Counted from the first letter of the stretch, positions 19,868 to 31,163 are shown. The stretch: 53,795 nucleotides of DNA from Bacteroidia bacterium (GCA_022180565.1 BQML01000023.1:1-53795); one strand, 5' to 3'. A program made the numbers and translations. Notes: generated from the sequence alone by a model not told the origin.

Positions 19868-20890
19868 TTAGGTCTGGAGGATATTGAGTTGCCAAAGGTC
19901 GCGGCTACTCGTCCTGAGAAACGGATGAAGGGCCAGCCGGCCTGTGGCTCCGATGCTTTGCTGCAAGTACGCGAGCTCCTTGAATTTTGCCCTTACGTCG
20001 GCATCTTCAGCCGAGGGAGGAGTAAACCCCGCCTCACGAAGAAGAAGCATCCCCTTGGCACGAATGGAGAGCTCGAGGTAAATCTGAAGGTAGCAAATCA
20101 TATCGGCGATGATCTCACCGCGGAAACGGTCTTGAAGCGTTTTTAAGTATGTGCCGACGCGTGTCTGCGTCAGGTTCCCAGACGTAATCATTTCCAGCAA
20201 CTGAACGTCGGTATCAAATCCCACGCCGAGCCATTCCCTCGTCGAGCGCTCGCTGGATTGAAAAACCGCGGCGAGGAGGAGGGGCAATCCGGCGATGATG
20301 GTTAATGGCGAGAAGAGGGGGTGAAACAGAAAGTGGTTGTAGTATGAATGAATGAGCACGGCAAGAAATAGGCCTTTCCACAGGACGAGGGGGGATTCCG
20401 TGGAGCGTTCTTCGGCTTCCCTCTTGGCCACGATGGCCACGATGGCGGTTGCTCCGCCATGCATCACTGCCGTCCCAAATCCTCGGACAATCCAAAGGAA
20501 CATGTCGTCTGATACGGAAGTCGTCAGATAGTAAAGATTCTCAATGAACGCAAAGCCGGCCCCGACGGCAAATCCGTAGATTGCCGCATCCACCATAAAC
20601 CCGATACGCTGTTTTCGGAGGAGGTAAACAAAGAACAGCGCTTTGAGAATTTCTTCGTTAACCGGGGCGCCATAGCGCGTGAAGGTCACAAAGGGCAGGC
20701 CGGTGAGCTTCTGAGTCCACGAGTTGATGAAGTAGGACGCGCCGGCGGCCGCGCAGCCGAAGAGGATCGCTCCCGCAACGCCGCGAGCCCTCACAAGCTT
20801 ATAACTGTCGAGAAAAATCAGGGCAAGGAGGAACAGAAACACCGGGGCCAGGCTGATAACGACGGCCGGTACTGCAGAGAGATCGATCAT
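19868..20890 (-). CDS. PrsW-like intramembrane metalloprotease with C-terminal soluble extension
   Basis: A 340-residue protein with about seven to eight membrane helices in residues 10-215 and the PrsW family motifs: the NEEILKA pair (Glu79-Glu80), FIEN (Glu117-Asn118), FGTAVMHGG (His144) and the IHSYYNHF motif (His181). PrsW in Bacillus performs site-1 cleavage of an anti-sigma factor; other members have different or unknown substrates. Residues ~220-340 are soluble and helical, an extension not needed for catalysis. I use the ATG at 20890, which overlaps the upstream stop as ATGA (20887-20890); the frame's first start at 20929 would give a 42-base overlap. An anti-sigma-like protein is encoded about 4 kb upstream on the same strand. 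Confidence 0.82.
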   Translation of the reverse strand: MIDLSAVPAVVISLAPVFLFLLALIFLDSYKLVRARGVAGAILFGCAAAGASYFINSWTQKLTGLPFVTFTRYGAPVNEEILKALFFVYLLRKQRIGFMVDAAIYGFAVGAGFAFIENLYYLTTSVSDDMFLWIVRGFGTAVMHGGATAIVAIVAKREAEERSTESPLVLWKGLFLAVLIHSYYNHFLFHPLFSPLTIIAGLPLLLAAVFQSSERSTREWLGVGFDTDVQLLEMITSGNLTQTRVGTYLKTLQDRFRGEIIADMICYLQIYLELSIRAKGMLLLREAGFTPPSAEDADVRAKFKELAYLQQSIGATGRLALHPFLRTSSRDLWQLNILQT

Positions 20891-23826
20891 TGCAGAATCT
20901 TGAGGGACACCATGAATTCGTCTGACCATCGCTGATTCTTCTCTGCGGCTCTTGCGTAGCCGAGGGAGAAGGTGGACTCAAAGGACGAGAAGAGCACGAG
21001 GCGAAAATCGAGCTGAGCGCCCGCGCTGATTGCCGTGCTGCGCGAGATCTTGTCGACATTCGTCCCGATGGCCGCGGTGAACAGCGAGAGGCGCATCCAG
21101 TTGGAGTAGAGGGTCTGGAACCCCAGGTGACGGAACCGTATGGGCGGGAGGTTCCATTCCAGCATGCCCTTCAAATAATTGATACCGCCAATCTGGTTGA
21201 TGGCGAGACCGGGAAAGCTATGATCCTCCCGATACCGCCAGATTTCCCCCACGTCCACCCAGTTGTTTCCAAATCCTCCGAAATAGAAATTGGCGAACGG
21301 ATTGTCGCGTTGGCCGAACGAAATGCCTCCCGCCGTCCTTAGCCACAGGGACGAATGGTTCATGGGCAACAGGAACCCGTAACCGAGATTTGTGCTGACG
21401 CGCGGATACACCTCCCGCAGGACAATGTTCGCATGGGTAGCCGCGCGCCACTCAAGGCCCTTCTCATACTCCACGGCCCCCAGAGATTTCGAGAGGTTCT
21501 GATAATTGATGCGGGCATCGAAGGACCAGAACCGATCGAAGGAAGCGACAATGTTCTGAAACTCCGGCAGACGCTCCAATCCCCAGTATCCGCCGACGGT
21601 GAACCGGTAATCCATCGTTTCCGGTTCGTCAAAGATCGCGTAGTCCTTGTACTGGAGTGAGAGGGAATATCCCTTCCGGCTTGTCTTCGTCGGCCCAAAC
21701 AGGTCGTAGAAGTCCGCGCCGTTCATTGTGGCCGTCATCTTCCACTCCCAAAGCCGGTAGTTGAGAACGGCATGCACGCGTTCGTTGGATGGGAGCACAG
21801 CGTTGGGCGTGTAGGAAGCCGTCAGGTCGATCATATGCGAGTAAAGAGGATCCGCAAAACTGAGGCGCATCCCGTACCCTGCAAAGTTCTTGTATCCCTC
21901 AACCACGGGGTAGGCAGACACCAGCGAGATGTGTGTCTTGTACTCTCCGCGGTACGTGATGAGAGAATCAAGATTCACGTTTGCCGCTGAGGGGCGGCGT
22001 ACGTGCCACGATCGTACCACGGGATGGCGTTTGGCGATCTCATTCCCCAGGTAACGGATTGCGCTCACGCTTTCCACCGATGTGTTGCCGATCATCACCG
22101 GCACAAATCCCTGTCCCGTGTACAAAAAGGCGAGGATGGAATCGGGAGACACCGGAGTTGGGCGGAAGAGGCCGGTTTCGCAATTCGTTAACCAGTGCAT
22201 CTCCTTTGTTTCAAAATCGTATCGAACAATGTTCGATACCCCGCTATAGTACGACGATCCGAACAGATGCTTTCCGTCGGGTGAGAAAACAAAGTTCGCG
22301 GGTGTGCTGATGTCGAAGTCGTACAGGATGTCATAGGAGGTCTTCCCTGCGAGAAGATCGGCGGTGTTCATGGCGATAAGTTTCTGCGTGCCGTCGAGTT
22401 CCGCCAACGCGGCGGTCAGCATCGTCCCGTCCGGGGAAATATCGAGATCGAAAATGTCCTTTCCGTACGGCCACGCGTAGACAAGATTCCACTCTGTATA
22501 CGGCGCAGGGATCCTCACGAGGGAAGAGATCCCATTGTAGTGCCGGACGCCCCAGAGGCTCTGATCCGAGGGATTGACCACGAAATCCCCGGTACGGCAG
22601 TCCTTCAGAAGCATCGTTGTCCGGCCCGTTTTGAGATCGTAGGCGTTCAGGTCGCGCCACTTGTTGTTGTCGGTTGAGAAGAACAGGGTTTCTGTTGACG
22701 GATCGTGGGCGAGAGAAGTAACGTAAAACAGAGTGCCTCCGCGAACGTCATGCAATCTGCGCTTTGCTCCCGTGGCAAGGTCGATCGCAGCAAGATGGGC
22801 AACTTGGCCCGGATAGTTCACTGCCGCGTAGAGAACGTTTCGCTTTCTGTCCACAAACGGCCTCGATACCGATCCCAGGAGCGTCTGCGTGATTCTGCGG
22901 TAAGGAGTGATCGGATGTGTTCTGATCAGAGTGAGGTTCTCGCGTTGCCACTCCTGTTCCCACACGATCCAGCGAGCCCATTCCTCATCGAGAGGAGCTC
23001 CGAACACCTGCTGGAACCGTGCTGCAAAGTGATTCATGCTTTCGCGGTCGTGGTTGTTCCATGCGACGACCTTCTCGGGTCCGTACTGCAGGGCCAGATA
23101 ACTCATGAAGCGGGTGCCGTACAGGTATGAATTCGCTCCGACCTGAAAATCGGCCTTGGTTCCTTCTGCCTCCAGTCCCACGATGTCATAGAAGAGAGCG
23201 CTGTCTCTCACCATAGTGCGAAACATCATCTCATCGTAGGCGCCGAGGGCGCGCCCCAATCCACCATTCATCCAGGTTTCCATGAACACCGCCTGGCCTT
23301 CGAAGAACCAGCTCGGCGCGTAAAGCCGCGGACTCGTGAGATATCCGTAGAGAAGCGAAAGAGGGGCTTCAGGAATCGGCGCGATCTTTCCTCCGAACAG
23401 AGATCGGAAGAACCTTGCGGACGATGAAGGCTTATCCATCGTGACGATGTGGGCAAGCTCGTGATTCATCATCCAGCTCATCCGTTCCACTGCCGGCATG
23501 GTTTCATAGGAGTAGTGAAACGGCGAGATTCCCACGCTGATGAGATTTCTCGGTACTCCGGTGGCGCCTCCGTTTCCAAAATCGCCGAAATCCTGAATCA
23601 GCACCGTGACGGGTTCCGAAGGCGTGTACTCGAAGAGCCGCGAATGGAAATCGAGGGCAATCTCAAAACAGCGGGCCACATGCGGGACAAGGTACTCATG
23701 TCCCTTGGAGAAATAGACAAGTCGAAGGTGCTCGGTCTCCAGGGCGGACAACTGGGCGCGCAGGTGACCCGCCGACAGTCCGAAGAACAATCCGGCCAAA
23801 ACGAGCGATCGTGCGGACAAGGGCAT
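20887..23826 (-). CDS. Exported gluzincin-like metallopeptidase with beta-propeller and C-terminal barrel-like region
   Basis: A 979-residue protein. The signal peptide covers residues 1-24 (ending LRAQ). A peptidase MA-like domain (25-310) has HELAH at 122-126 and a candidate third ligand Glu176 (WFFEGQAVFME). A TolB/WD40-like propeller follows (~315-610; repeated blade ends such as DISPDGTMLTAAL and NFVFSPDGKHLFGS). The last ~350 residues are amphipathic beta with many aromatics (KGYSLSLQYKDYAIF; GGFGNNWVDVG), like an outer-membrane barrel. A peptidase tethered to or built into the outer membrane is the simplest reading. The gene heads an operon with the PrsW-like and M55 genes. The RBS is GAGGG, only four bases from the ATG. 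Confidence 0.8.
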   Translation of the reverse strand: MPLSARSLVLAGLFFGLSAGHLRAQLSALETEHLRLVYFSKGHEYLVPHVARCFEIALDFHSRLFEYTPSEPVTVLIQDFGDFGNGGATGVPRNLISVGISPFHYSYETMPAVERMSWMMNHELAHIVTMDKPSSSARFFRSLFGGKIAPIPEAPLSLLYGYLTSPRLYAPSWFFEGQAVFMETWMNGGLGRALGAYDEMMFRTMVRDSALFYDIVGLEAEGTKADFQVGANSYLYGTRFMSYLALQYGPEKVVAWNNHDRESMNHFAARFQQVFGAPLDEEWARWIVWEQEWQRENLTLIRTHPITPYRRITQTLLGSVSRPFVDRKRNVLYAAVNYPGQVAHLAAIDLATGAKRRLHDVRGGTLFYVTSLAHDPSTETLFFSTDNNKWRDLNAYDLKTGRTTMLLKDCRTGDFVVNPSDQSLWGVRHYNGISSLVRIPAPYTEWNLVYAWPYGKDIFDLDISPDGTMLTAALAELDGTQKLIAMNTADLLAGKTSYDILYDFDISTPANFVFSPDGKHLFGSSYYSGVSNIVRYDFETKEMHWLTNCETGLFRPTPVSPDSILAFLYTGQGFVPVMIGNTSVESVSAIRYLGNEIAKRHPVVRSWHVRRPSAANVNLDSLITYRGEYKTHISLVSAYPVVEGYKNFAGYGMRLSFADPLYSHMIDLTASYTPNAVLPSNERVHAVLNYRLWEWKMTATMNGADFYDLFGPTKTSRKGYSLSLQYKDYAIFDEPETMDYRFTVGGYWGLERLPEFQNIVASFDRFWSFDARINYQNLSKSLGAVEYEKGLEWRAATHANIVLREVYPRVSTNLGYGFLLPMNHSSLWLRTAGGISFGQRDNPFANFYFGGFGNNWVDVGEIWRYREDHSFPGLAINQIGGINYLKGMLEWNLPPIRFRHLGFQTLYSNWMRLSLFTAAIGTNVDKISRSTAISAGAQLDFRLVLFSSFESTFSLGYARAAEKNQRWSDEFMVSLKILQ

Positions 23827-23905: not shown

Positions 23906-23914
23906 GCCGGAAGG

Positions 23915-23951
23915 AAAAAAGAAGAGGGAATGACCTCGCGGCCATTCCCTC
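23915..23951 (-). terminator. Intrinsic terminator of the repeat-protein operon
   Basis: A perfect 9-bp stem, GAGGGAATG paired with CATTCCCTC (23951-23943 and 23932-23924), with a 10-base loop, followed on the minus strand by TTCTTTTTT (23923-23915). It lies about 20 bases after the stop of the nonapeptide-repeat gene. Confidence 0.85.
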
Positions 23952-23972: not shown

Positions 23973-25280
23973 TCAGTCCAGACGATTGACGCCTTTGACC
24001 AACTCTGCGAACCGGGCGCTCTTCAGGAGCTGGGCGAACCGTGCGTCTTTCATGAGACCCGCGAACCTGGCATCCTTGGCAAGTTCGGCGAACCGCGCAT
24101 CTTTCATGAGTTCGGCGAAGCGGGCATCTTTCATCAGCTCCGCAAAGCGGGCGTCTTTCATGAGTCCTGCGAAGCGGGCGTCCTTTGCCAATTCGGCAAA
24201 TCGTGCGTCTTTCATCAGAGCGGCGAAGCGGGCGTCCTTGGCAAGCTCGGCGAACCGCGCATCCTTCATGAGTTCAGCGAACCGGGCATCTTTGGCCAAT
24301 TCCGCAAACCGGGCGCTCTTGAGAAGCTGCGCGAACCGCGCATCCTTGGCCAGTTCGGCAAACCGCGCATCCTTGGCAAGCTCGGCGAAGCGGGCGTTGT
24401 TTGCCAGCTCGGCAAAGCGGGCATCCTTCATCAATTCCGCGAACCTGGCATCTTTCATGAGTTCGGCAAAGCGGGCGCTTTTCACAAGCTCCGCAAAGCG
24501 AGCATCTTTGGCCAGCTCGGCGAACCGCGCATCCTTGGCCAGTTCCGCAAACCGTGCATCTTTGGCCAACTCAGCAAAGCGGGCGTCCTTCATCAGCTCG
24601 GCGAAGCGCGCATCCTTCATCAACTCTGCAAAGCGAGCATCCTTTGCCAGTTCGGCAAACCGAGCATCTTTGGCAAGTTCCGCGAAGCGGGCGTTGTTTG
24701 CCAGCTCGGCAAAGCGCGCATCCTTCATCAGCTCGGCGAACCGTGCATCCTTCATGAGTTCCGCAAACCGCGCATCTTTCATGAGCTCGGCAAACCGGGC
24801 GCTTTGGAGCAATCCGGCAAACCGCGCATCCTTGGCTAATTCGGCAAACCGCGCATCTTTTGCCAGTTCAGCGAACCGCGCATCCTTTGCCAGTTCGGCA
24901 AACCGCGCATCCTGCATGAGCTCGGCAAAATATGCACCCTGCATCAATTCGGCGAACCGCGCATCCTTCGCCAGTTCGGCGAACCGGGCATCCTGCATCA
25001 GCGCTTGGAAGTTCGGGTCGCCGATCAACTTCTGAACCTGGTCGCTTTGCAACAGCAGTTGAAACTCGGGATCCTCAAGATTGACGTCCTCGGACGTCAT
25101 TTGCTCCGAGCGGTATTTCTCGGCCTTCTGGATCCCTCCAATTGTTCCCGCCGCGTCGTCTGAGCTGACGGGTGGATAGAAGAACGCAAAATAGATGATC
25201 GCCAGCGCGGCGACGACGATTCCACCGGCGGCAAACAATCTCTTGCGGCCTCCTGCTGATCCTGTGGAACTTGGTGCCAT
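23973..25280 (-). CDS. Membrane-anchored nonapeptide-repeat protein of an ECF sigma operon
   Basis: A 435-residue protein of no family I recognise. The basic start GRKRL is followed by one membrane segment (about 14-36) that orients the rest to the periplasm. An acidic linker (37-67) leads to three degenerate nine-residue units (68-94; DPEF and DPNF cores). Then come 37 nearly identical units (95-427) of consensus [AM]KDARFAEL, and a short tail (VKGVNRLD). Variant units xKSARFAEL recur at units 20, 26 and 37 (LQS at unit 8), and ANNARFAEL at units 12 and 23. Nine residues equal 2.5 helical turns, so a very long helix or helical solenoid is possible. It starts 16 bases after the anti-sigma-like gene with a strong RBS (AAGGAGGAG) and ends before a clear terminator. 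A structural or sensing role in the envelope is inferred. Confidence 0.85.
   Translation of the reverse strand: MAPSSTGSAGGRKRLFAAGGIVVAALAIIYFAFFYPPVSSDDAAGTIGGIQKAEKYRSEQMTSEDVNLEDPEFQLLLQSDQVQKLIGDPNFQALMQDARFAELAKDARFAELMQGAYFAELMQDARFAELAKDARFAELAKDARFAELAKDARFAGLLQSARFAELMKDARFAELMKDARFAELMKDARFAELANNARFAELAKDARFAELAKDARFAELMKDARFAELMKDARFAELAKDARFAELAKDARFAELAKDARFAELVKSARFAELMKDARFAELMKDARFAELANNARFAELAKDARFAELAKDARFAQLLKSARFAELAKDARFAELMKDARFAELAKDARFAALMKDARFAELAKDARFAGLMKDARFAELMKDARFAELMKDARFAELAKDARFAGLMKDARFAQLLKSARFAELVKGVNRLD
24000..25079 (-). repeat. In-frame 27-bp tandem repeat (about 40 units, 37 canonical)
   Basis: Coding repeat with a 27-bp period and no spacers. Units 1-37 of the canonical type fill 24000-24998, and three degenerate units fill 24999-25079. 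The protein is nearly invariant but codons differ between units: Arg is encoded by CGG, CGC, CGA and AGG, and Ala by GCG, GCC, GCA and GCT. A younger higher-order duplication is visible: the ANN unit and its flank share about 35 identical bases at ~24380-24410 and ~24677-24707, 297 bp (11 units) apart. Confidence 0.9.
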
Positions 25281-25296
25281 GACTCCTCCTTAAGGT

Positions 25297-26046
25297 TTAG
25301 TGTGATTGATCCGTTTGACGTTCGGGTTCAAAAACCAATCGTTGCTCGAACCGCGTCGTTCCATCGACAAGAATCTGTACGGTCATTGTCGGAGTCTGAT
25401 GATCGGAAACAAAGCTCAGCGTCGTGGTAAGGTTATTCCTGGCGGCCAGAAGTACCTGACCGGGAGAAACTTCAAGCGTGGAGGGCTGATCGGCCGTAGA
25501 GCGTACAAACCTGGCGTCGGCGGGAGGGAAGAGAACACGCAGGGTGAATTCACGGCCGCTTTGTAAAGACCCCTGAACCTGAATTGTTCCGTCAACGACC
25601 TGGCCCCGGATTGAACCGCTGACCTCGGGAAGGTCGACCCGGGCAGAGACTTCTGCTGAATGTCCGATCGTGCCCGCGAGCCCTGAGGAATCGGGGGGAG
25701 TTCCGGAGAAAGCCAGGAAGAGAACGATCCCCGCCACCGCGCCGCCGACAAAGGTATAGGCAGTTCGCAAAACAGGAATCCGGACAAAATCGGAGAGCCG
25801 ATCCCAGAAGGAGGGTGTCGCCGCGGAAGGCCGCGGAAGCGAATTGAGAATTCTGAGTTTGAGGGACCGCGGTGGATCAACCTTGGGGACGTTCCTGAGT
25901 GTTGCCGAAAGTTTCTTCAACTCCGCGTACACCTCACGCGCTGCCTTATTCCGCTCGAGAATTTCCCGCACGCGTTTGCTGTCACGGGGAGAGTTTGTCC
26001 CATCCATTTCCTGATTCAGAAGATCGTATGTTCGCTTGTCAAGCAT
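25297..26046 (-). CDS. Membrane anti-sigma-factor-like protein
   Basis: A 249-residue protein. Residues 1-70 form a helical anti-sigma-type domain (MLDKRTYDLLNQEMDG ... EVYAELKKLSATLRNVP) without the His/Cys zinc motif. A single membrane helix follows at ~95-118, then a beta-rich periplasmic domain (~130-249) with no Cys. The start overlaps the stop of the ECF sigma gene by eight bases, the usual arrangement for a cognate sigma/anti-sigma pair. Release of the sigma factor could occur by regulated proteolysis, and a PrsW-like protease is encoded nearby, but that link is inferred. Family assignment rests on position, topology and the N-terminal pattern. Confidence 0.78.
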   Translation of the reverse strand: MLDKRTYDLLNQEMDGTNSPRDSKRVREILERNKAAREVYAELKKLSATLRNVPKVDPPRSLKLRILNSLPRPSAATPSFWDRLSDFVRIPVLRTAYTFVGGAVAGIVLFLAFSGTPPDSSGLAGTIGHSAEVSARVDLPEVSGSIRGQVVDGTIQVQGSLQSGREFTLRVLFPPADARFVRSTADQPSTLEVSPGQVLLAARNNLTTTLSFVSDHQTPTMTVQILVDGTTRFEQRLVFEPERQTDQSH

Positions 26047-26581
26047 TCGTAATTCCCTTTTTCATCAAAACTCGCCTGAGAACGCGTCTGGCGGAAAAGA
26101 GGCGTGACTTGACCGTGTTCTCGTGGAGATCGAGAATGTAGGCGATTTCCCGGTAAGAGAGTTCCTGAAAATGATTCAAAATCACAAGGATGCGATAGTC
26201 GGGCTTCAATTCCAGCAGAGCATTGTTGATGGCGAGCGTCATTTCGGGATCGCCAACCGTTTCTTCTTCTCTCTTTCCTGAATGGAGCGTTTCGTCGAAC
26301 CGGTCGAAATCCCGTTTGCGATTCAGGAAGTTAATGGATTCGTTGACAGCGATCTTATAAAGCCAGCTGAAGAACTTGTACTTCGGATCGAACGTGTCCA
26401 GCTTCTCGAATGTCTTGACAAACACGGTCTGCGTGATATCCTCGGCATCTTCTCTATCCGTCGTGAAGCGAAGCGCCAGGTTAAACACCGGTTTCTGGTA
26501 CCGGTCAACAAGCTCCTCAAAGGCTTTCTGGTTCCCGTCCAGACATTGGCGAACGAGATCGGAATCCTCTTCCTGTCTCAT
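26039..26581 (-). CDS. ECF-type RNA polymerase sigma factor
   Basis: A 180-residue sigma-70 family protein with region 2 (AFEELVDRYQKPVFNLALRF; DREDAEDITQTVFVKTFEKL; FFSWLYKIAVNESINFLNRK) and region 4 (ELSYREIAYILDLHENTVKS), without regions 1.1 and 3, so group 4 (ECF). The frame extends 35 codons further upstream, but sigma region 2 homology favours the ATG at 26581 (MRQEEDSDLV). No clear Shine-Dalgarno precedes it. It is followed by an overlapping anti-sigma-like gene and then the repeat protein, presumably its operon partners or targets. The 123 bases upstream contain no obvious ECF-type promoter that I could identify. Confidence 0.92.
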   Translation of the reverse strand: MRQEEDSDLVRQCLDGNQKAFEELVDRYQKPVFNLALRFTTDREDAEDITQTVFVKTFEKLDTFDPKYKFFSWLYKIAVNESINFLNRKRDFDRFDETLHSGKREEETVGDPEMTLAINNALLELKPDYRILVILNHFQELSYREIAYILDLHENTVKSRLFSARRVLRRVLMKKGITNA

Positions 26582-26704
26582 ACTTACAAGTAATCTTTGG
26601 AAAAGTTGGCGTGTGCAGGGGGAGAAAGGTACTTCCTTTTGAGGGAGAGTTGCAACCAAAACCGAAAAAACGGCCAAAATGCGCAAAAACCGGGGTGTCG
26701 GGGG

Positions 26705-26989
26705 TTACTCGATCTCAAAAATCATATCAAATCGGGCAAAATGAAAAACATCCCTGATATGCTTGCTCATATTGATCAATTTCAGCCTCTTGCCCGATTG
26801 GCTCAGGCGCTTCTGGGTTGCCAGAAGAACTCCCAGTCCGGCGCTGGAGATATACTGAAGCTCCTTGAAGTCCACCTTGGCAGACTCGTTGATCCTGCCC
26901 AGAACTTCCATTGCTTTATCCGTTTGTGCGGCGTCCAACCTCCCGCTCAAGACTACATCGCCCTGATCGGTTATTTTGATCTCAAACAT
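26705..26989 (-). CDS. STAS-domain anti-sigma factor antagonist
   Basis: A 94-residue single STAS domain resembling SpoIIAA/RsbV. The motif LQYISSAGLGVLLATQK (about residues 44-60) carries the Ser that is phosphorylated by the partner kinase in known systems. It starts 3-4 bases after the RsbW-like kinase gene, so the two form a classic partner-switch pair. In known pairs the unphosphorylated STAS protein captures the kinase and frees its target. The target here is unknown; the ECF sigma factor encoded next is not of the class usually bound by RsbW-type kinases. Confidence 0.9.
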   Translation of the reverse strand: MFEIKITDQGDVVLSGRLDAAQTDKAMEVLGRINESAKVDFKELQYISSAGLGVLLATQKRLSQSGKRLKLINMSKHIRDVFHFARFDMIFEIE

Positions 26990-26992
26990 TGT

Positions 26993-27394
26993 TTACTCCA
27001 GCGGTAGGCGAAACGAGATGATGCTCGTTCTGTTTTGATGCTCATACTGAAGATTTTCGACAAGTTTCTGCACAAGGTAGATTCCCAGACCGCCCGGTTT
27101 CCGTTCTTCCAGAGACCGTTTCAGATCAACGCTCCTCTGCTTGCTGACGTCAAACGGATCGGAGTCCGGATCGGTGATCTGCACCAGTACCTCCTTTTTG
27201 TCAAAAGACAGATGCATGTGAATATCGCCTTTTCCGGACGGATTGTACTTCACCATGTTTGTAAAGAGTTCTTCCACCGCAAGGTCAAGCACGTATCGTA
27301 CCCTCTCGCTGATCGCATGAATCTGTGTAAACTCGTTCGTGAACTCAAACACGCTTTGGAGTTGTCCGAACGTGCGCCTGAAGGATCGGTCCAC
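26993..27394 (-). CDS. RsbW/SpoIIAB-like anti-sigma serine kinase (HATPase_c)
   Basis: A 133-residue GHKL ATPase domain with an N box (AVEELFTNMVKYN), G1 box (ITDPDSDPFD) and G2 box (KPGGLGIYLVQKLV). This is the compact single-domain kinase of partner-switching modules. The frame opens with a TTG at 27421 inside the amidohydrolase gene. A GTG at 27394, four bases after that gene's stop, fits coupling better and is used here; neither start has a good RBS. Substrate: the STAS protein encoded immediately downstream. Confidence 0.88.
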   Translation of the reverse strand: MDRSFRRTFGQLQSVFEFTNEFTQIHAISERVRYVLDLAVEELFTNMVKYNPSGKGDIHMHLSFDKKEVLVQITDPDSDPFDVSKQRSVDLKRSLEERKPGGLGIYLVQKLVENLQYEHQNRTSIISFRLPLE

Positions 27395-27398
27395 GACG

Positions 27399-28682
27399 TC
27401 AGAGTCCGTGTTTGTACACAATTCCCTCTTTCATAACGAAACCAATGTGCTCCAACGCACTGATGTCCTTCAATGGATCGCCGCGCGTCGCCACAATGTC
27501 CGCGAACGCCCCGGGCCTGATCTCGCCGATGGTTCCGCTCATCCCCAACAGATCCGCCGCCACCGTGGTTGCAGACTTGATGGCCTGCATCGGGGTCATG
27601 CCCCATTGAACCATGTAGGAAAATTCCTTGGCCTGATTCTCGGTCCACGCGAACCCTCCTGCATCAGTCCCAAAAGCGATCTTCACGCCTGCCTTCAAGG
27701 CCTTGGCAAAGGTGAGCCGAAGCCGGTCTTTGAGACTGAGAAAGACCGTATTGCCCTCGGCCGCCCTCCCCTCCGCAACCCACATATTCACATGAATCGT
27801 GGGGCACCAGAACACGCCGTTCTTTACCATAGCACGAATGCACTCGTCATCCATTGCCTGTCCGTGCTCGATGGTCTGTGCGCCCGCGGCAATGGCCGCC
27901 AGCACCCCATCCCGTGTCACCGCATGGGCAGCAAGCTTCTTGCGCAAGCGAAGAGTCTCTTCCCCGATAGCTGTGATCTCCTCCTTCGTGAAGTTCGGAA
28001 TACTCCTGAAGGTGCCGTCGGGAAGCTGATAGTAGCTTCCGTCCGCGTAGATTTTGATCCAGTCGGCCCCGTACGAGATCTGTTCGCGTACGGCCCGCCG
28101 CGCCTCGTCAACGCCGGTGATCTCCTGCACACCTTTGGGCATCTGCAATTCCCATGCATAGGAAGAATTGTTCAGGAGGTACCGGCCTGTGGTACTGATG
28201 GAACGCGTGGCAACGAACATCCGCGGGCCGATGATCACTCCGTTGTTGATCGCTTTCTTCAGATCAACATCGGCATACATGGCGCCTTCGGTTTCGAGGT
28301 CTCGGATCGCCGTGAAGCCGTTCATCAGAGCGGTCGAACAGGCGCGCGCAGCGCGGAGAGTCCGGTAGGGGATCGATTCTTTCAGGATCTGTTCGGCATA
28401 GTCCTCGGCCGTGATGTCGCCCTGAAGGAGGACATGGGTGTGACAATCGATGAGGCCGGGGAGCACCGTGGCCGAGGACAGGTCGATAAGAGCGGCCCCG
28501 GCGGGAATCTCAAGATTCTTGCCGACAGCTGTAATTCGTCCGTTTTCGATCAGGATAACAGCGTTCTCTAGGGGGGTGTCGGATCGCCCATCGATCAGCC
28601 TGCCGCATTGAAGGGCGGTGATTTGGGCGGAGAGGATTGCAGGAAGAACGGCGGTCAAAAATGTCAACGTGCGGAGCATCAA
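27399..28682 (-). CDS. Exported amidohydrolase (imidazolonepropionase-like)
   Basis: A 427-residue metal-dependent hydrolase with signal peptide (MMLRTLTFLTAVLPAILSAQ). Motifs in order: VLPGLIDCHTHV (HxH metal ligands), GADWIKIYADGSY (the Lys-bearing strand), LAAHAVTRDGV and AQTIEHG (His ligands), and FGTDAGGF (Asp). This matches exported members of the amidohydrolase superfamily often annotated as prolidase-like or imidazolonepropionase-like, probably acting on small amides or dipeptides. Start supported by GGAGG just upstream. It heads the strand run leading to the partner-switch and ECF genes and has its own promoter candidate. Confidence 0.88.
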   Translation of the reverse strand: MMLRTLTFLTAVLPAILSAQITALQCGRLIDGRSDTPLENAVILIENGRITAVGKNLEIPAGAALIDLSSATVLPGLIDCHTHVLLQGDITAEDYAEQILKESIPYRTLRAARACSTALMNGFTAIRDLETEGAMYADVDLKKAINNGVIIGPRMFVATRSISTTGRYLLNNSSYAWELQMPKGVQEITGVDEARRAVREQISYGADWIKIYADGSYYQLPDGTFRSIPNFTKEEITAIGEETLRLRKKLAAHAVTRDGVLAAIAAGAQTIEHGQAMDDECIRAMVKNGVFWCPTIHVNMWVAEGRAAEGNTVFLSLKDRLRLTFAKALKAGVKIAFGTDAGGFAWTENQAKEFSYMVQWGMTPMQAIKSATTVAADLLGMSGTIGEIRPGAFADIVATRGDPLKDISALEHIGFVMKEGIVYKHGL

Positions 28683-28723: not shown

Positions 28724-28752
28724 AATATGATATATAGCCGGCTAAGAATCAA
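28724..28752 (-). promoter_or_regulatory. Promoter with palindromic spacer, upstream of the amidohydrolase gene
   Basis: TTGATT (28752..28747), 17-bp spacer, CATATT (28729..28724). The spacer holds the perfect 10-bp palindrome TAGCCGGCTA (28735-28744), a position typical for a repressor site. The -35 overlaps the end of the upstream lipoprotein gene (stop at 28742). Confidence 0.45.
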
Positions 28753-29680
28753 GGAACCGAAGGGTTTCCTGTTGACCAATGTCGAGAAGGATGATTCTGT
28801 CCGTGATGCCGGCCGAGTCCGCGAGCGCCAAAAGCTGTTCCATTGCATAGGTTGGGGAAGGATCGAAACCCTGAACGAGGGTCCGGTGATGCATCGGCAG
28901 CATCACCCTGGCGCCCACATCGTGAAATATCTCGAGGGCCTGGGCAGGATCGACATGGTAGCGCTCCATGAAATCCCGTGGCTCGATCGGTCCGATGGGC
29001 AGAATGGCAAGATCGATGCGGAACCGGCGTCCGATTTCCTTGAACAACTCCGGATGGTACCCCGTGTCGCCCGCGAAGAACACCGTGATTCCCCTGTACT
29101 CGATCACCCACCCCGTGTACCCGCGGTCACGCATCCAAAGCATGTCGAATCCGTACCGTCCGCTGAAGTGCTGAACGGGAACGGCGGTGAGGCGAACGCC
29201 CTCATGCTCGATTGCTTCCCAAGGCCGCAGCTCCTTCATTTCTTCAAAGCCCAATTCGGGGGTATACGGCAACGAGCCAAATGGCAAAAGGAGCTTCCCA
29301 TGCTTGGGAATCCTGTCCAGACTGCCGAAGCTGAAGTGATCAAAATGGATGTGTGAAATAAGCGTGAAATCGACCTGTGAGAGACGAGAAGGGTCAAGAC
29401 CGGGGGCAATCGTTCGTTTCATCACCATGCCGACAGTGTTCGTAAACAACGGATCGGTGAGGAACACTTTGTCGTGGATCTGGATCAGAACCGTGGCGTG
29501 ACCGGACCAGAGGACGGAGAACGTCCCGTCCTGCGCGTGGATCGTCTGCTCATAGCCCGGGGCCGCTTCCATGGGTCTCCCCATTTGTTCCACCGACTTC
29601 AGAAGGAACCTGTTCACCATGGAACTGCATCCTCCGAAAACCAGAAGCGCTGCGAGAGAAATGAGGAATGGTTGGATCAT
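28742..29680 (-). CDS. Metallo-beta-lactamase-fold lipoprotein (second of a tandem pair)
   Basis: A 312-residue protein with lipobox VFGGC (Cys18) and the MBL metal motif SHIHFDHFS, a later AGDTGYHPE segment (Asp ligand) and PMHHRTL (His). It belongs to the UlaG/NAPE-PLD-like branch of hydrolases. It is clearly paralogous to the next gene upstream and overlaps it by four bases (ATGA at 29677-29680), so the pair arose by tandem duplication and is co-translated. As lipoproteins they face the periplasm. Substrate unknown; phospholipid-derived or lactone substrates are possible from the family. Confidence 0.88.
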   Translation of the reverse strand: MIQPFLISLAALLVFGGCSSMVNRFLLKSVEQMGRPMEAAPGYEQTIHAQDGTFSVLWSGHATVLIQIHDKVFLTDPLFTNTVGMVMKRTIAPGLDPSRLSQVDFTLISHIHFDHFSFGSLDRIPKHGKLLLPFGSLPYTPELGFEEMKELRPWEAIEHEGVRLTAVPVQHFSGRYGFDMLWMRDRGYTGWVIEYRGITVFFAGDTGYHPELFKEIGRRFRIDLAILPIGPIEPRDFMERYHVDPAQALEIFHDVGARVMLPMHHRTLVQGFDPSPTYAMEQLLALADSAGITDRIILLDIGQQETLRFLDS

Positions 29681-30636
29681 GGGGTAACGACCGGACGTGA
29701 AGAGGGAATGATGATTCGTTGCTCACCGACATCGAGATCGACAATGCGGTCGGAGAGCCCCAGTTCGGAGGCAAGGGCGCGAAGCGTGATGATGGATTGC
29801 GCTGGATCCTCTTCAAATCCGTAAAAAAGGGTTTTGTGATGCACGGGAAGCATGTAGTCGGCACCGACATCCTGGAAGATCATCAATGCTCCCCGGGGGT
29901 GCACATGAATGCGGGATCCAACTTCCCAGGATCCTCCTGGACCGATAGGAATGACGGCCAGGTCGATTGTAAAGCGGCGGCCGATCTCCTTGAAGTACTC
30001 GGGATGGTATCCTGTGTCGCCCGCGAAAAAAACCGTGAGGTCCTTGTGTTGAACCACATAACCCGTGTAGCCGTGGTCGCGCATCCACGCTCCGTCGAAG
30101 CCGTATCGTCCGCTGAAATGCTGAACAGGAACTGCAGTGATGGTGAGTCCGGAATCTTCAACGGATGCCCAGGGTGCCAGTTCGTACACGGCGCGAAAAC
30201 CGAACTCGGGCGTGTATCGAAGAGCGCCAAGAGGGACTGCAAGGACGCCCCCGCGGGGAAGCTGTTCGAGACTTCCGTAGCTGAAGTGGTCAAAATGCGT
30301 ATGGGAAATCAGGGTTGCATCGAGTTTGGGGAGGATGGCGGGATCCATTCCGGGGGCAATGTAGCGCTTGACAACGATGCCCACCGTGCTCGTGAACAGC
30401 GGATCGGTCATGACCAGCTTGTCGTGCATCTGAATGAGCGCCGTTGCATGTCCCACCCAGGCGACGGCGAGGTCTGCCGAGGGCAGGAGGGGTTGAGTGA
30501 TCATCGATGGCGGCGATGAGATGGGTTCGTGGATGCGGCTCACGGAACGCGTGAACATCCGCGCGGCCCACGTACTACAACCGGTCAGAAGAAGAGCAAA
30601 ACCGAGAAATGCCAGAAAGAGAAGCCGGCGCGTCAT
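29677..30636 (-). CDS. Metallo-beta-lactamase-fold lipoprotein (first of a tandem pair)
   Basis: A 319-residue protein starting MTRRLLFLAFLGFALLLTGC (lipobox Cys20). It has HTHFDH, AGDTGYHPE and PVHHKTL in the same order as its downstream paralogue. The ATG shares one base with the stop of the upstream beta-barrel-like gene (TGATG at 30634-30638), which decides the start; the frame itself begins 11 codons earlier without support. The three genes 30636-31163, 29677-30636 and 28742-29680 form a tightly coupled operon. Confidence 0.87.
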   Translation of the reverse strand: MTRRLLFLAFLGFALLLTGCSTWAARMFTRSVSRIHEPISSPPSMITQPLLPSADLAVAWVGHATALIQMHDKLVMTDPLFTSTVGIVVKRYIAPGMDPAILPKLDATLISHTHFDHFSYGSLEQLPRGGVLAVPLGALRYTPEFGFRAVYELAPWASVEDSGLTITAVPVQHFSGRYGFDGAWMRDHGYTGYVVQHKDLTVFFAGDTGYHPEYFKEIGRRFTIDLAVIPIGPGGSWEVGSRIHVHPRGALMIFQDVGADYMLPVHHKTLFYGFEEDPAQSIITLRALASELGLSDRIVDLDVGEQRIIIPSSRPVVTP

Positions 30637-31163
30637 CAGAATACTCTGAATTCCAACGATCCGATCCATGCGGTGGGGTTGTCGGCATGTTTGAGATTGA
30701 GATGGAGCATTCCGAAGAGCGTGGAGATGCCGGCAATTTTAAACACGCGTGTGGTCCCGGCGACACGGTGGGCCCCCACGCCGAGGTTCAGCGTCAGATG
30801 CTCGCCGCGTTCGGACAAAGGAATGAATCCCATGATCCTGGCATAAGAGCCGAAATACGAGGAGCCGAGTTTGGACGTGTAAATCTGTCCTGCAACGCTC
30901 AGCTCGACCGACCCCGTGAAACGGGCGGTCGGTTCAACGATGAAGGAGTACCAGGGGGAGACATACCGGTTCATGCCGAAGGAGTACAGGAGCGGCGTGA
31001 CTTCCCACTCGAACCCGAAATTGGAAGTGCGGGCGTCGTTGTAGAGCGTGAGGGTGGGGAGAAGCTGAAGCGGAAGCCAGACGAGGAATTTGTCGGCGTT
31101 TTCTTGAGCGTTCGCCCTGGGAACCACACACACCAGAACAATGATGAGAAGAGATCTTTTCAT
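30636..31163 (-). CDS. Small exported outer-membrane-like protein
   Basis: A 175-residue protein with a signal peptide (MKRSLLIIVLVCVVPRANAQ). The rest is amphipathic beta with alternating aromatics and frequent Gly/Ser (FLVWLPLQLLPTLTLYND; GSSYFGSYARIMGFIPL), ending GSLEFRVF with a C-terminal Phe as in outer-membrane barrels. It may be an eight-stranded barrel. No family recognised. It is the first gene of the operon with the two MBL-fold lipoproteins, which suggests an outer-membrane or periplasmic context for them. The start at 31163 is chosen for its signal peptide; no RBS is evident. Confidence 0.65.
   Translation of the reverse strand: MKRSLLIIVLVCVVPRANAQENADKFLVWLPLQLLPTLTLYNDARTSNFGFEWEVTPLLYSFGMNRYVSPWYSFIVEPTARFTGSVELSVAGQIYTSKLGSSYFGSYARIMGFIPLSERGEHLTLNLGVGAHRVAGTTRVFKIAGISTLFGMLHLNLKHADNPTAWIGSLEFRVF

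Follow-up and report, generated by a model that had tools for sequence, protein, structure and literature searches.

A protein carrying about 40 nine-residue repeats, encoded in the 53,795-nucleotide stretch of Bacteroidia DNA analysed here (GCA_022180565.1, BQML01000023.1:1-53795; hereafter the window), appears from sequence comparison to be the arm of a fixed seven-gene stress-signalling cluster found across the Ignavibacteria and their relatives. Close relatives appear to keep the signalling genes of this cluster while swapping the arm together with a co-encoded outer-membrane barrel, a pattern that points to an undescribed two-part envelope sensor. The repeat system is real, conserved and undescribed in the libraries searched, and a literature search found, under the terms used, no publication on this gene cluster. 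If the proposal is true, it would add a signalling system that is spread over several classes of the phylum and has a central part without a named family, a natural single-helix nine-residue solenoid, and an unusual form of cassette exchange in which the cytoplasmic half stays and all that faces the periplasm or the outer membrane is exchanged together. Because such swaps occur in nature, the specificity of the partners can be tested directly, and the nested start described below predicts an anti-sigma gene with two measurable products.

Every gene of the cluster lies on the minus strand of the window. An RsbW-like kinase (HATPase_c_2, 26,993-27,421) and a STAS (RsbV-like) protein (26,705-26,989), both assigned by domain match and conserved position, are followed by an ECF sigma factor (26,039-26,584; Sigma70_r2, E 6e-17; r4_2, E 1e-13), an anti-sigma factor (25,297-26,046), the repeat protein (23,973-25,280), an outer-membrane partner (20,887-23,826) and a PrsW-family intramembrane protease (19,868-20,929; PF13367, 79.3 bits against a cutoff of 23.5). 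The system extends past the interval 23,973-26,581 treated in the earlier note, with kinase and STAS upstream, barrel and PrsW downstream. What that note described was confirmed, with small corrections: the sigma and anti-sigma genes overlap by 8 bp, and the start of the repeat gene follows the anti-sigma stop after 16 bp, preceded by a strong Shine-Dalgarno sequence, AAGGAGG (25,285-25,291). The anti-sigma factor has a cytoplasmic N-domain, a single transmembrane helix (TM; residues about 95-113), a GTIG motif 11 residues past it (25,663-25,674) and a periplasmic C-domain; its assignment is based on its position adjoining the sigma gene, on this topology and on weak matches to NCBIfam anti-sigma models (E 4e-5, below cutoff). 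The terminator reported after the repeat gene is also present (23,914-23,951), with a 12-pair stem starting at 23,951 and ending at 23,924, followed by the T tract TTCTTTTTT, and about 14 of 31 related loci have a similar hairpin separating the repeat gene from the barrel gene. The outer-membrane partner combines a signal peptide and an HExxH gluzincin-like domain with a TolB/PD40-like propeller and an Omp85-like barrel, the last two scoring weakly by profile (TolB-like, E 0.02; Omp85_2, E 0.002).

The repeat protein (435 aa) consists of a single transmembrane helix (residues about 12-34; 25,179-25,247), a juxtamembrane motif, GTIGGIQKAEKYRSEQMTSEDVNL, conserved in alignments (residues 45-68; 25,077-25,148), and the array (23,988-25,070). 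The conserved part that defines the family comprises the TM and the next 24 residues, GT[IM]GG..KYRSEQ..DKDV.L; no Pfam family covers it, and the statement that no named family has such a unit holds in the sense that none in the libraries searched covers the protein. The array, described earlier as about 40 nonapeptide copies behind one TM, has 39 pattern-matched 9-mers and one divergent unit in unbroken register: units are spaced by nine residues in 37 of 38 steps, the single step of 18 crosses the divergent unit, and identity at lag 9 is 0.83, against a maximum of 0.20 among 2000 shuffles. The sequence [AM]KDARFAEL is matched exactly by 22 units; the array opens with DPEFQLLLQ, SDQVQKLIG and DPNFQALMQ, which are STI1-like. 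Across lineages the unit is 9, 12, 16, 45, 26 or 6 residues long, and distant members have no repeat. Nine-residue units occur in the window, in most of family f1, in genus g40 of f6, and in f9 and f43; units of 12 residues occur in G022, G031, G065 and G067, and one of 16 in G052. Arrays of separate lineages are totally different in sequence.

The repeats themselves make poor queries, and homology searches were keyed on the TM and juxtamembrane residues; with such profiles, 28 of the 98 genomes of the order proved to carry the family, which also turned up in more families of the class and in other classes of the phylum. A contig scan returned one locus only, in an Ignavibacteriales MAG, on the same contig as G001. 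The cluster's architecture is well supported: the genes come in nearly the same order throughout (RsbW-like kinase, STAS, ECF sigma, anti-sigma, repeat protein, HExxH/propeller/Omp85-like barrel, PrsW), and readable loci have the barrel in every case, PrsW in all but one (G036) and the sigma factor in 40 of 41, which bears out the association of the repeat protein with the sigma/anti-sigma pair. The earlier note had taken homologues without such a neighbour as evidence against this association; nearly all have one, the exception being a divergent homologue without repeats (G284) whose neighbour is an alpha/beta hydrolase and not a sigma or anti-sigma gene. Kinase and STAS are missing from the distant G243 and G167. 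Each genome of the order set that has the repeat gene also has a close barrel homologue, and most barrel proteins carry HExxH with a second motif, EGxAxFxE, some of those that fail the narrow HExxH pattern reading HELMH (G058). Assemblies often break at the repeat gene (L126, L095, L169, L170, L176, L180, L181), and because so many do, its absence from draft genomes is unreliable. The cluster tree conflicts with the genome family labels f1, f3, f6 and f9, a conflict which suggests that the whole cluster may have been transferred horizontally.

Fifteen loci from the order and class searches carry an in-frame fusion of anti-sigma domain and repeat protein, as do four f43 loci of another class. 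The cytoplasmic anti-sigma domain in these proteins runs straight into the repeat protein, N-terminal to the TM, and the array must therefore lie outside the membrane, so that the periplasm-facing orientation first proposed is fixed by the 15 relatives. In a tree built from five neighbouring genes, fusion has arisen separately at least five times. All 15 fusions retain the old start ATG, preceded at -5 by GGAGG in 13 cases and by AGGAG or GAGGG in the other two; as background, 4 of 946 further in-frame ATGs inside genes of the cluster (0.4%) have GGAGG. From the retention of both start and Shine-Dalgarno sequence inside the fused genes we infer that each makes two products, an anti-sigma-fused arm and a free arm.

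As to the fold, AlphaFold2 models each unit of the window array as a 7-residue helix and a 2-residue turn (pLDDT about 88-90), and those of a 12-residue array as a 10-residue helix and a 2-residue turn (pLDDT 72-81). The array is thus predicted to be a solenoid of short amphipathic helices, resembling a giant STI1/DP-type helix array, and the steps between unit lengths of 9, 12 and 16 would each correspond to roughly one turn of helix, an extrapolation for 16 residues. The earlier note had offered two forms, of which the helical solenoid agrees with the model, and the stiff continuous helix of about 50 nm does not, as the modelled helix is interrupted every nine residues and, in relatives, proline stands at unit position 2. 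Continuous helices and coiled coils in general were rejected on the same regular proline and on the periods, which are 9, 12 and 16 and not 7 or 11. In twenty 9-mer arrays position 1 is S, D, N or T in 77% of units, positions 4, 7 and 8 are hydrophobic, and proline occupies position 2 in 27% on average, percentages that lean towards a helix pattern because the phase of each array was picked by a score favouring the N-cap/proline pattern; the confinement of proline to position 2 (at most 0.5% elsewhere) is the stronger point. Taken per unit, the pattern reads as the signature of one helix beginning in every unit. It is given more weight than pLDDT because AlphaFold2 yields confident but unrealistic solenoids for perfect repeats, as shown for beta-solenoids (PMC11795689). 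No solved-structure match was found for the array: fold searches with both models gave nothing above noise (for the window model, Foldseek best E 7e-3 and VIA-align Z 7.3, to a designed fibre), and a viral fold library gave no match. The 12-residue array of G065, modelled as a chain of 10-residue helices, matches the MgtE N domain (PF03448, E 7.5e-11), and its Foldseek list includes MgtE structures at weak E-values (0.02-0.3); that domain is, however, the cytosolic Mg2+-sensing part of a transporter, and the resemblance is likely an analogy arising from a common short-helix layout. The B-domain of coagulation factor V, an unrelated human protein, likewise has nine-residue repeats of SPDL type and a phmmer match to the G525 array; the match to a factor V PDB sequence was rejected as compositional, and the case warns that such repeats can be unstructured.

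The exchange of arm and barrel is seen directly in two sister pairs only, G029/G031 and G052/G066, in both of which regulator DNA is about 90-97% identical, PrsW DNA 81-95% identical, and the repeat types differ. Kinase, STAS and sigma factor are shared at 92-94% by G029 and G031, and the readable part of PrsW at 93-100%, but the array is built of 9-mers in one and of 12-mers in the other, and the barrels match at 53%; DNA identity drops at the end of the anti-sigma gene and recovers at PrsW. For G052/G066 it is about 94% up to the anti-sigma TM, 56-70% over the periplasmic half of that protein, 82% at the repeat-protein TM, 57-78% over most of the barrel and 81-95% in PrsW, the arrays being different and the barrels 66% identical. 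The reverse is seen in G064/G066, whose regulators are about 50-70% and barrels 79% identical and which have a 45-residue repeat in common, and in G058/G064, where regulators have diverged, barrels are similar and the array type is shared. A partial Mantel test found that repeat class tracks barrel similarity given the regulators (r 0.185, p 0.025; reverse, p 0.22), a small effect that agrees modestly with co-replacement. The inclusion of two neighbouring genes in one recombination tract may be a simpler, partial explanation of the barrel-repeat pairing. Tentatively, and with more doubt than confidence, we propose an undescribed class of envelope signalling module in which a membrane-anchored solenoid with one helix per unit (9, 12 or 16 residues, made up of a two-residue loop and a helix of about two, three or four turns) and an outer-membrane metalloprotease-barrel would pair up as interchangeable lock-and-key sets. 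These would pass between species as cassettes, the cytoplasmic signalling half staying in place, and the nested start would let one gene give both the fused and the free arm.

The reading we lean towards, with a confidence that falls a little short of even, is that the repeat protein serves a PrsW-type ECF sigma system as its periplasmic sensor arm and is matched to the outer-membrane partner. Fixed in the inner membrane with the N-terminus on the cytoplasmic side, the arm would engage the co-encoded metalloprotease-barrel, to which it would be matched in sequence; a change in this engagement, with the partner damaged, missing or occupied, would give the adjacent PrsW access, and PrsW would cut at GT[IM]G just outside the membrane, on arm and anti-sigma alike, after which a site-2 protease would finish the anti-sigma and free the sigma factor. 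Where the arm is fused to the anti-sigma domain, as in many relatives, the internal ribosome-binding site would also yield the arm alone. Binding, cleavage site and signal are the elements that we infer here. A PrsW-type RIP frame was chosen because the PrsW of the cluster is the only copy in the genome, site-2 protease homologues are present (three M50 matches over cutoff), and GT-type motifs stand past both TMs: G[TS][ILM] follows the TM shortly in 17 of 18 separate anti-sigmas, and the GT[IM]G of the repeat protein, GTIG in the window, is a candidate proteolysis site. Against this, the sensor could be a part other than the arm, since many species have a separate anti-sigma with a periplasmic domain of its own. 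Nor does the sensor-arm model account for the kinase and STAS genes, which stay upstream of the sigma gene in nearly all sigma-linked loci; partner switching with an ECF sigma factor would be unusual.

Among known systems FecA-FecR-FecI has an outer-membrane barrel, an inner-membrane anti-sigma and an ECF sigma in one locus, as is the case here; the present barrel, in contrast, is not a TonB receptor by any match, and the repeat arm and PrsW are added. The SigW-RsiW-PrsW system of Bacillus subtilis likewise has an ECF sigma, a single-TM anti-sigma and a PrsW-family protease, PrsW being the site-1 protease of RsiW (PMC3498285). The present cluster differs in that PrsW lies inside it, in having a repeat arm, an outer-membrane metalloprotease-barrel and RsbW/RsbV-like genes, and in that anti-sigma domain and arm often form one protein, with a second start nested in the gene. 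The defining features of a PrsW/RsiW system that can be read from sequence are all present, and the system would appear to work in that manner.

A second barrel subfamily, 30-35% identical with HExxH kept, has no match to sigma, PrsW or anti-sigma nearby, and in 10 of 12 readable loci it is directly preceded by a secreted signal-peptide protein with near-perfect repeats of 15-16 residues (for example SGSQLDELGSKYGWVR), ending exactly in R or K. These proteins, with the pattern S.SQL[DE]ELGSRYG[FW].R, were seen at L125:5529-6248 (minus), at the end of L124 and in L167, L172, L174, L175 and L177-L179; they have the look of peptide precursors with many copies, or of a partner array. Several other contigs of the subfamily end at the repeat position, as repeats would cause, and no secreted repeat partner was seen for a more distant barrel group (HEFTH, 24% identical). 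On this evidence the repeat-barrel pairing is not tied to the sigma link, being older than it or independent of it, and the subfamily and the sigma-less G284 show that pairing can occur without signalling. This raises an alternative, improbable but the strongest of those considered, in which the barrel processes or exports the repeat protein, the sigma system merely controls supply, and a cut at GT[IM]G would release the protein from the inner membrane. The weak resemblance of the partner to Omp85-type proteins is in keeping with such a substrate or passenger, but a protein that was only an export substrate would hardly be expected to have its array fused repeatedly to a cytoplasmic anti-sigma domain. 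Nor does an N-terminal motif unite the two kinds of repeat protein convincingly: the pattern [VIA][QER].A.[KR].R, which fits 8 of 8 secreted proteins, was chosen after looking, and the profile test was weak (best p 0.001, most not significant), so that a motif common to both kinds was rejected.

A periplasmic holdase, whose STI1-like groove would bind hydrophobic helices or unfolded outer-membrane proteins, with client load titrating the anti-sigma, is a good deal less likely. STI1 domains are short amphipathic helices that form a hydrophobic groove binding transmembrane segments (PMC8010706, PMC13083928). The STI1/HOP DP domains of Sti1, Sgt2 and ubiquilin resemble the predicted array in having short amphipathic helices opened by D/N/S-P motifs, a helix pattern that the array shows in the AlphaFold2 model and the N-cap statistics, with proline in some lineages only; DPxFxxLL-type sequence is found in the first units here and in arrays of other classes, and ECF systems, moreover, often report envelope stress. 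STI1-HOP_DP is the leading plausible Pfam match for the window and four other-class arrays. On repetitive proteins its scores of 33.5, 48.8, 74.5 and 54.9 exceed the curated cutoff of 29.1, but Pfam scores on repeats are inflated: the repeat protein "matches" Plasmodium HRP at 1e-24, and on the least repetitive part STI1 scores 19.8, below the cutoff. Matches to Plasmodium_HRP, Med31 and DUF816 (Pfam) and to TPR_END_plus (NCBIfam) were set aside as composition artefacts of the repeats. STI1 domains are also cytosolic and of about five helices, whereas here some 40 near-identical units are periplasmic; arrays built of 12 or 16 residues per unit bear no likeness to STI1, and solved STI1 structures were absent among the Foldseek and VIA-align matches listed for the window model. 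The earlier note had held that a match to a characterised repeat family would refute its reading, and the STI1 similarity is such a match in part only.

Selection on the array bears on the remaining alternatives. Between units of the window array pN is 0.13 and pS 0.82, and the G006 and G019 arrays are 98% identical over 186 residues without a gap, even though synonymous sites have reached saturation (pS 0.84), their barrels being 86% identical. The array is likewise closer than the barrel in G525/G395 (85% and 80%), and in genus g40 it falls below the barrel (G060/G071, 88% and 91%; G060/G072, 67% and 88%). Apart from replacements, these values indicate that purifying selection holds array sequence and copy number, and the identities of the g40 and other pairs suggest that arrays can be held over long periods and then replaced. 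The earlier proposal of a periplasm-spanning rod that reports or sets membrane distance, which we rate slightly below the holdase, finds some agreement in the membrane anchor, the long regular array, the outer-membrane partner and a copy number that is frozen in G006/G019. A spacer blind to sequence is nevertheless unlikely given the gapless identity of that pair, since residue identity and not length alone is under strong selection; array length varies widely among relatives (about 180-410 residues), and a solenoid is predicted instead of a single helix. That the array is a low-complexity tail of little function, remade by slippage in each lineage, is very improbable even though unit type differs between sister genomes, given pN far below pS, an array tighter than the barrel in G006/G019 and a register unbroken across 40 units, and a neutral slippage tract was rejected on the first two of these grounds.

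Two further features of the window may be mentioned. A plus-strand open frame of 349 aa (23,986-25,035), antisense to the repeat array, is expected from the in-phase 27-bp unit and codon choice, and we do not regard it as a gene. On the minus strand, two similar open frames lie next to each other (28,742-29,680 and 29,677-30,669); they have metallo-beta-lactamase-like HxHxDH motifs and are probably a tandem duplication.
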